The position numbers and the translations under genes were made by a program. From contig JAUWOV010000076.1 of assembly GCA_030611945.1 (NCBI GenBank), positions 1-8,575 on the forward strand: 8,575 bases of DNA, given 5' to 3'. Positions 3,024 to 4,796 of the stretch are shown here, in pieces; the first letter of the stretch is position 1; each line of letters opens with the position of its first letter. The notes under the pieces were generated by a model. It worked only from the letters and a program-made list of their open reading frames with translations. It was not told where the DNA came from and searched no databases. This stretch comes from a bacterium (GTDB lineage Bacteria > JAHJDO01).

Positions 3024-3050
3024 TTAGCACTCTAAAGCCGAGAGTGCTAA
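3024..3050 (-). promoter_or_regulatory. CIRCE operator (HrcA binding site)
   Basis: The sequence TTAGCACTC, then 9 nt (3033-3041), then GAGTGCTAA forms a perfect 9-bp inverted repeat that matches the CIRCE consensus exactly. It lies between the promoter -10 box and the hrcA ribosome-binding site, with its upstream edge at about the expected transcription start. HrcA bound here should block initiation at the hrcA-grpE-dnaK promoter. Confidence 0.98.
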
Positions 3051-3350: not shown

Positions 3351-3890
3351 CTACTCAGCTTTCTCTGTTTGATCTGCATTAAGCTCAATTTCTGGTGATT
3401 GAGCAGACGTATCTTCAGGCTGTTGTTCAACCTTTTCTACCGGCTGCTCAACGCTAGGTTCAGTACTTATAGGCTGTTCAACTTCAGGTTTAATCTCAGG
3501 TTTAACCTCCTGAGGCAATTCTGCTCTTTCTGCTTCATAAACTTCTAATATCTTTTTCTGCAGATAGTTTCTGGCTTCTGTAGTTATTGGATGCGCTATA
3601 TCTCTGTGCTCATCTATTCTATCTTCTCCTTCTTTCATTTGAACGCTCTGAAATTCAAGAGCCTTGCCGCACTGATTACAAAATTTACTTCTAAGAGCAT
3701 TACGATGATGACAGTTGGGACATGCTTCTCTTACCTGCCTGGAAGGCATTGCTACAAACAACCCTTTTCTCCCATCAATAACTTTTAAATCTCTCACAAC
3801 AAAAGAATTGTCAAAAATAATAGTTGCATACGCTTTTAATTTGCTGCCTTCTCTATCTCTTAGTCTAACTTTTACTTCTGTGATTTCCAT
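3351..3890 (-). CDS. spoVG: SpoVG-family nucleic-acid-binding protein with inserted zinc ribbon and charged tail
   Basis: SpoVG proteins are small regulators, shown to bind DNA or RNA in Staphylococcus, Listeria and Borrelia and linked to septation and sporulation in Bacillus. The N-terminal core (residues 1-51: MEITEVKVRLR, then FVVRDLKVIDGRKGLFVAMPSR) and the second core block RDIAHPITTEARNYLQKKILEVYEAE (96-121) match B. subtilis SpoVG. Between them, where B. subtilis has about 8 residues, there are about 45. These hold CPNC (57-60) and CNQC (71-74), a C-x2-C-x10-C-x2-C pattern typical of a zinc ribbon. Residues 122-179 form a Pro/Glu/Gln-rich, probably disordered tail. Total length is 179 aa against about 97 in B. 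subtilis. The ATG has AAGGAG (3900-3905) upstream with 9 nt spacing. It lies 33 bp after ispE; ispE and spoVG are also near neighbours in B. subtilis. Family assignment is firm; the role here is unknown. Confidence 0.92.
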   Translation of the reverse strand: MEITEVKVRLRDREGSKLKAYATIIFDNSFVVRDLKVIDGRKGLFVAMPSRQVREACPNCHHRNALRSKFCNQCGKALEFQSVQMKEGEDRIDEHRDIAHPITTEARNYLQKKILEVYEAERAELPQEVKPEIKPEVEQPISTEPSVEQPVEKVEQQPEDTSAQSPEIELNADQTEKAE

Positions 3891-3923: not shown

Positions 3924-4796
3924 TTAAATGCCTTTTGCCACATAACAGACTACTCCTAATTTTTGGTCATTAGAAAGATTTTCGGATATCAAGTAAGCAT
4001 CGTCTTTGCTTGAGACTATACCAAAAACTGTAGACCCTGTTCCACTCATTAAGGCGCCGCTTGCTCCACAAGCTATCATTTTCTTCTTAATGTATTTAAC
4101 AAGCGGATATTCTTTAAACACTACCCCCTCCAATCTGTTAAACAAATTATCTGCGATATCCTTAATCTGTAATTTCTTAAGCTTCGGCAACTTAGCACTA
4201 TTTATGTTTTTTGTCAACTCCCTATCCAATCTTCCATATGCCCATTTTGTTGAAACGCTCATATTTGGAACAGCTAGAACAAGCCATATCTTAGGTATAG
4301 CAAAACAAGTGTGTATTTTTACTCCTCGTCCTTTTACCAGCGCAGTTTTACCATTAATGAAGAATGGAACATCAGAACCTATTTCTGCTCCTAATTCCTG
4401 TAATTGCGCATTTTTTAACCCAATATTCCAGAGTTGATTTAAGCCTTTGAGAACCGAAGCCGCATTGCTACTGCCGCCGCCCAAACCGGATCCAACAGGT
4501 ATTTTTTTGTCAATTGTAATAGAAATCCCCTTTTTAATATTGAATCTTTCTATAAGTAGTTTTGCCGCTTTGTATGCCAGATTGTCCCGAAAGTTTTCGG
4601 GATTAGATGGAATGCTGATTTCTCTATTTGGGCAGAGAATGGTTATATCTCTCAGCCTATCCTCCAATAGTATATTATCGCATAAACTTATTTTTTGAAT
4701 TAGGCTTTCAATTTCGTGGTAACCATCATCTCTCTTTCCTAATACCTCTAAAAACAAATTAACTTTTGCATACGATTTTAGAGAGAGACTGCTCAT
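3924..4796 (-). CDS. ispE: 4-diphosphocytidyl-2-C-methyl-D-erythritol kinase IspE
   Basis: IspE phosphorylates CDP-methylerythritol with ATP, the fourth step of the MEP route to isopentenyl diphosphate. The 290-residue protein is a GHMP kinase of normal length. The N-terminal SYAKVNLFLEVLGKRDDGYH (8-27) contains the catalytic Lys11. The glycine-rich ATP loop is PVGSGLGGGSSNA (100-112), and GSDVPFF (140-146) supplies the catalytic Asp142. The C-terminal GHMP motif is GALMSGTGSTVFGI, near residue 250. Its ATG overlaps the pyrD stop by 4 nt (ATGA), with a weak AGGGA ribosome site, which suggests coupling to pyrD. Between SIP and NLAYKAAKLL (about 64-71) there are several more residues than I expect for the family, coinciding with an 18-bp palindrome. 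Function is confident. Confidence 0.96.
   Translation of the reverse strand: MSSLSLKSYAKVNLFLEVLGKRDDGYHEIESLIQKISLCDNILLEDRLRDITILCPNREISIPSNPENFRDNLAYKAAKLLIERFNIKKGISITIDKKIPVGSGLGGGSSNAASVLKGLNQLWNIGLKNAQLQELGAEIGSDVPFFINGKTALVKGRGVKIHTCFAIPKIWLVLAVPNMSVSTKWAYGRLDRELTKNINSAKLPKLKKLQIKDIADNLFNRLEGVVFKEYPLVKYIKKKMIACGASGALMSGTGSTVFGIVSSKDDAYLISENLSNDQKLGVVCYVAKGI
4585..4602. repeat. Perfect 18-bp palindrome inside ispE
   Basis: TCCCGAAA, a 2-nt spacer (GT) and TTTCGGGA form an uninterrupted 8-bp inverted repeat. On the coding strand it spans the codons around residues 65-71 of IspE (NPENFRD), a surface loop between conserved segments. A stem with a 2-nt loop is strained, so a slightly opened hairpin is more likely in RNA. 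No T-rich tail follows it, so it does not look like an intrinsic terminator. It may be a small inserted repeat. Confidence 0.75.

Follow-up and report, generated by a model that had tools for sequence, protein, structure and literature searches.

The 8,575-nucleotide stretch of bacterial DNA analysed here (the window) carries, all on the minus strand, the genes pyrB-pyrC-pyrK-pyrD-ispE-spoVG-tRNA-Gln-tRNA-Met-hrcA-grpE-dnaK, where names other than spoVG were read from the translations. A perfect CIRCE element (TTAGCACTC-N9-GAGTGCTAA, window positions 3024–3050) lies directly upstream of hrcA-grpE-dnaK and matches HrcA autoregulation, as expected. The phylum-level group of the window assembly was represented in the comparison set by one genus with five genomes. 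The spoVG gene and its two neighbours are placed as follows:

3924..4796, minus strand: ispE, directly upstream of spoVG; a conserved neighbour, on the same strand in 78 of 80 related loci
3351..3890, minus strand: spoVG coding sequence with a nested predicted zinc ribbon; open reading frame of 179 aa
3252..3323, minus strand: tRNA-Gln, directly downstream of spoVG; a conserved neighbour, in 68 of 80 named loci

The same ispE-spoVG-tRNA-Gln locus was found in 34 of 51 genomes with canonical SpoVG, which argues for vertical inheritance rather than a mobile gene. The neighbourhood of ribbon-bearing spoVG genes revealed no partner gene beyond ispE and tRNA-Gln, both of which are common to canonical SpoVG. 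Within the coding sequence, the following parts were distinguished:

3735..3890, minus strand: N-terminal half of the SpoVG core, residues 1–52, ending in AMPSRQ (PF04026; crystal structures 2ia9/2i9x/2i9z)
3735..3740, minus strand: R51-Q52, the counterpart by alignment of the Staphylococcus aureus SpoVG K50-R51 doublet, with Gln second in this genus
3612..3734, minus strand: inserted segment, residues 53–93, from loop comparison with canonical SpoVG
3666..3722, minus strand: predicted zinc ribbon C57-x2-C60-x3-N64-x6-C71-x2-C74-G75, net charge +3 (Pfam, AlphaFold, superposition)
3606..3665, minus strand: acidic linker from ribbon to core, residues 76–95, net charge −3, of low confidence (pLDDT 46–63 in blocks 81–100)
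3519..3605, minus strand: C-terminal core half with RDIAHPI and the specificity helix (helix 104–124; PF04026, AlphaFold model)
3354..3518, minus strand: Pro/Glu-rich acidic tail, residues 125–179, predicted to be disordered (pLDDT 54–64 from residue 131; 79 in block 121–130)

The PF04026 profile matched residues 1–119 over profile positions 1–81 of 82 with 97.9 bits, against a gathering score of 29.6, and a PDB sequence search matched the two halves of the core separately to SpoVG crystal structures (residues 1–53 and 94 onward). A sequence-only reading of this DNA had described a SpoVG core split by an insertion with both halves intact in one frame; the profile match bears this out, and one open frame with PF04026 over the whole core rules out a frameshifted or broken gene. 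The NCBI equivalog 'septation regulator SpoVG' (NF009749) scored 94.5 bits, below its curated cut-off of 108, the match being broken into two parts by the insert. In S. aureus SpoVG, DNA binding requires both K50 and R51, and sequence specificity is determined by residues 66–71 in the C-terminal helix (PMC3688583). Alignment places the start of the insert immediately after this doublet and its end just before the specificity-helix segment. The doublet is basic in 96–100% of copies from Omnitrophota and in 99% of those from a Planctomycetota-like phylum, and in the window genus it reads R-Q, with R51 kept and Gln as the second residue; the helix Arg is invariant, bar one copy, in the ribbon-bearing and canonical sets. 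The tail carries a net charge of −12 over residues 123–179, and its 55-residue acidic, Pro/Glu-rich stretch differs in length among members of the genus.

The span from 'MP' to 'HP' measures 50 residues in the window protein and 13 in canonical SpoVG, a net gain of 37; the earlier reading was thus right that the loop had been replaced by an in-frame insert, and wrong on its size, which it gave as about 45 residues for 8. Cys57, Cys60, Cys71 and Cys74 are exactly where it had placed them (codons in 3722–3669). Scored alone, the insert exceeded the gathering cut-offs of Zn_Ribbon_1 (PF13240; 28.1 against 25) and DZR (PF12773; 28.0 against 27.3), and a whole-genome search gave Zn_Ribbon_1 27.6 bits at the window spoVG, again above the cut-off; with the full protein as query, both profiles fell slightly under theirs (24.9 and 25.7 bits, respectively). 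The insert shares with these families the C-x2-C-x10-C-x2-C-G spacing, but the SpoVG ribbon is strongly basic, has a conserved K-N at x3-x4 and is nested inside another domain. Chance CxxC pairs are ruled out by the Pfam scores together with ligand conservation.

To view the insert in three dimensions, we used an AlphaFold2 model of the window SpoVG, a monomer built from 56 sequences and holding neither nucleic acid nor zinc. The pLDDT was mostly 81–96 in the SpoVG core, 87–94 in the ribbon region, 46–63 in the linker and poor over most of the acidic tail, and the core superposed on 2ia9_F with Z 12.3 and an rmsd of 2.8 over 85 residues. The ribbon region matched ribosomal eL40 (rmsd 1.9 over 28 columns at a Foldseek probability of 0.97), NZF domains (1.0 Å over 25–27 columns) and RanBP2 fingers (1.6 Å over 31 residues). 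In absolute terms these matches score low, with Z between 2 and 4 and Foldseek E-values higher than 0.5, no more than a segment of 30 residues would be expected to give. A second AlphaFold model, of a Planctomycetota-like protein, showed the same arrangement, with the ribbon at residues 54–76 on a SpoVG fold, and over these residues the two models from different phyla reached pLDDT of about 87–94 and 87–91. The sequence-only reading had named Cys residues lying far apart in a structure model as evidence against a ribbon; because the insert superposes on zinc-bound folds, the four Cys would have to cluster, and we infer that they do. The SpoVG ribbon has in common with RanBP2-type/NZF fingers and eL40 the predicted fold and the C-x2-C-x3-N-x6-C-x2-C pattern, but lacks a Trp at position −2 relative to the first Cys. 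This Trp belongs to the published signature of the RanBP2-type zinc finger (PF00641), W-x-C-x2-4-C-x3-N-x6-C (PMC6384913). The C/N part of that signature is present in the SpoVG ribbons (N in 96%), and at position −2 Asp or Glu accounts for 67% (Glu in the window), with Trp outside the five commonest residues; a GGU reader of the RanBP2 type is ruled out by the missing Trp.

The distribution of the insert was surveyed in two ways. A pattern scan of named genomes gave at least 506 relatives among the 587 pattern matches listed, and the best 80 were kept; Candidatus Omnitrophota made up most of these, the rest being Auribacterota, NPL-UPA2 and a few whose labels are doubtful. In this score-selected set, all 84 ribbon-bearing proteins have the exact C-x2-C-x10-C-x2-C spacing. 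Because the set is biased by score, and one search pattern contained KFCNQCG, the survey was run again with PF04026, a profile that does not favour proteins with the insert. The ribbon was then found in all four full-length copies from the window phylum (one genus, 5 genomes). In Omnitrophota, SpoVG occurs in 107 of 136 genomes, and among the loci extracted 52 had a ribbon, each with four Cys at x10 spacing (52/52); the phylum, that of genome G288, was identified by a SpoVG that agreed with the SpoVG of a named Omnitrophota record at all 120 residues compared. In a Planctomycetota-like phylum, that of genome G276, SpoVG occurs in 91 of 139 genomes, nearly all in the long form, and 90 of 90 extracted loci keep the four Cys, 88 with exact spacing and two with spacing variants. 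PF07596, which we take to be a family expanded in Planctomycetota, had 57–70 matches in three of the Planctomycetota-like genomes tested and 0–1 in two others. These counts, with the agreement between our copies and a 2012 paper (PMC3444138), suggest that this phylum is Planctomycetota itself. In a broad sample, SpoVG was present in 185 of 385 bacterial genomes, with the ribbon form in at least 18 genomes belonging to 16 other families, and nearly all best-scoring canonical proteins had the 13-residue loop. The search for a C-x2-C-x10-C-x2-C insert among PF04026 homologues, which the earlier reading had proposed, therefore returned it from Omnitrophota, the Planctomycetota-like phylum, the window phylum and other families.

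Many Omnitrophota encode a second, short SpoVG paralogue without a ribbon (L316–L323, L325), and several of those extracted carry a KDGKWY-like motif and no longer contain HPI. A subset of Omnitrophota ribbon SpoVGs (L033, L037, L081, L303 and others) has a long linker followed by an acidic-hydrophobic C-terminal tip (EDDDIEL or EGDLEF, for example), which resembles the C-terminal tip of SSB and is uncommon in the unbiased sample.

Conservation in the ribbon extends beyond the Cys ligands: over 158 copies, K/R occupies x3 in 96%, N occupies x4 in 96%, and K/R is found at x7 in 72% and at x9 in 70%, while Gly follows the last Cys in 93%. The mean net charge of the ribbon is about +2.3 to +3.6, compared with −0.3 for a small control of 21 other CxxC-x10-CxxC ribbons from seven of the same genomes, taken from loci of the PF13240 search. 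The SpoVG ribbon thus has a basic conserved face. No relative was found that keeps the whole insert without the four Cys, a pattern that would have spoken against the sequence-only reading; the only long loop devoid of Cys is that of L177, in an Omnitrophota family that has been losing the ribbon. Sequence, profile, conservation and structure prediction agree on a nested domain rather than a broken gene, as that reading had proposed. Taken together, they point to an insert that is a structural zinc ribbon, probably zinc-binding, and support the assignment of the window protein as a SpoVG (PF04026) orthologue with this predicted ribbon nested in an intact core. Against canonical SpoVG (B. subtilis 2ia9, and the proteins of S. 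aureus and B. burgdorferi whose DNA binding has been studied), it shares the core halves, the fold, the helix Arg, the basic first residue of the doublet and the ispE-linked locus, and differs in its loop of 50 rather than 13 residues, its C4 zinc ribbon and its long acidic tail.

An insert in SpoVG has been published as a taxonomic marker. Gupta, Bhandari and Naushad (2012) described a 36-aa insert (32–36 in the figure legend) within a conserved SpoVG region as a signature of Planctomycetes, found in every member of the group sequenced at the time and absent from all other organisms, and their text does not mention zinc (PMC3444138). Our Planctomycetota-like copies have an insert of about equal size (net 37 in the window), and from this size and these copies we infer that the indel and the ribbon occupy the same position. 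Relative to that description, the insert is here identified as a predicted zinc ribbon and is also found in Omnitrophota, the candidate phylum of the window and other lineages; the restriction to Planctomycetes fails, since it also occurs in records titled Omnitrophota, Auribacterota and NPL-UPA2. A search of a literature made up largely of non-subscription journals did not find the zinc-ribbon identity, the wider range, the basic face or the in-place loss, and queries joining SpoVG with zinc ribbon, or Omnitrophica, insertion and zinc, returned nothing relevant. The window protein is a non-Planctomycetes member of a published kind of insert, to which the ribbon identity, the wider distribution and a loss are added here.

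This loss emerged from a tree of the SpoVG core (insert left out, 85 columns, weakly resolved), on which three changes between ribbon and no ribbon suffice and ribbon-bearing copies group together apart from unresolved forks. Seven ribbon-less proteins of one Omnitrophota family (f259) form a clade (100/99) inside the ribbon-bearing group, and L305, a member of the same family that keeps the ribbon, lies beside them (98/80). The ispE-spoVG locus is present in all seven and tRNA-Gln in six; three retain EHRDIAHPI or EHRDVAHP after the insert position and the others have a Tyr form, and L177 has a 24-residue loop without Cys. Most simply, the ribbon was lost in place. Horizontal replacement is ruled out by the shared ispE-spoVG-tRNA-Gln locus, the nesting within the ribbon clade and the retained EHRDIAHPI or close forms.

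What the ribbon does was weighed with these results in hand. The sequence-only reading had listed a change of nucleic-acid specificity, an added protein contact, and sensitivity to zinc or redox state; we favour the first on the predicted basic surface and its position, and the ribbon may well enlarge the nucleic-acid-binding surface of SpoVG. It would bind Zn2+, pack beside the DNA/RNA-binding groove and add contacts to phosphate or to single-stranded RNA or DNA, and these contacts would alter how tightly, or with what specificity, this global regulator binds DNA and RNA; SpoVG of Listeria monocytogenes binds RNA (PMC4959528). We hold this explanation as a whole, including inheritance of the ribbon-bearing gene in an ancestral ispE-spoVG-tRNA-Gln locus and an insertion made long ago, with moderate confidence. 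Several points weigh against it: core DNA contacts may differ in the window genus, given its Gln at the second doublet position; the ribbon is dispensable in the Omnitrophota family that keeps SpoVG without it; the model is a monomer devoid of nucleic acid and zinc, with a low-confidence linker behind the ribbon; and acidic proteins or rRNA are equally possible docking sites for a basic surface.

The main rival is a docking module: the ribbon would hold SpoVG to a partner, for example the ribosome, RNA polymerase or an RNase, and leave nucleic-acid specificity to the core. The look-alikes of the fold include NZF/RanBP2 fingers that bind ubiquitin or Ran as well as ribosomal eL40, and the doublet and the helix Arg are conserved about equally with and without the ribbon, so the core groove looks unchanged; however, most of the conserved residues other than the ligands are basic, and the spoVG neighbourhood shows no partner gene besides ispE and tRNA-Gln, and we judge docking somewhat unlikely. 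We find it improbable that the ribbon is an old insertion with little specific function, tolerated by the loop and stabilised by zinc: its clean loss from a gene retained at the same locus, and its publication solely as a taxonomic indel (PMC3444138), would fit a lineage marker, but a neutral insertion would not be expected to show the near-absolute conservation of the ligands and of Lys/Asn seen over 158 copies from at least three phylum-level groups. Least credible is that the four Cys, all-or-none in a short ribbon, switch SpoVG on and off in response to redox state or zinc, since structural (x4 Asn 96%, Gly 93%) and basic residues are conserved as well, as in a structural site, and the ribbon is retained across several phylum-level groups.

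One could speculate that SpoVG proteins with the zinc ribbon form a class of their own among global RNA/DNA-binding regulators in the Planctomycetota-Omnitrophota assemblage, the ribbon reading single-stranded RNA beside the SpoVG groove in a role comparable to that of a CsrA- or Hfq-like post-transcriptional regulator, though we think this a long shot. The published taxonomic marker is corrected in any case: the insert is wider than Planctomycetes and has a recognisable, predicted metal-binding fold. SpoVG is a pleiotropic regulator whose target choice is poorly understood, and the ribbon sits exactly between its two nucleic-acid-contacting elements. Ribbon-bearing SpoVG and its close ribbon-less relatives are thus a ready comparison for what sets SpoVG specificity.
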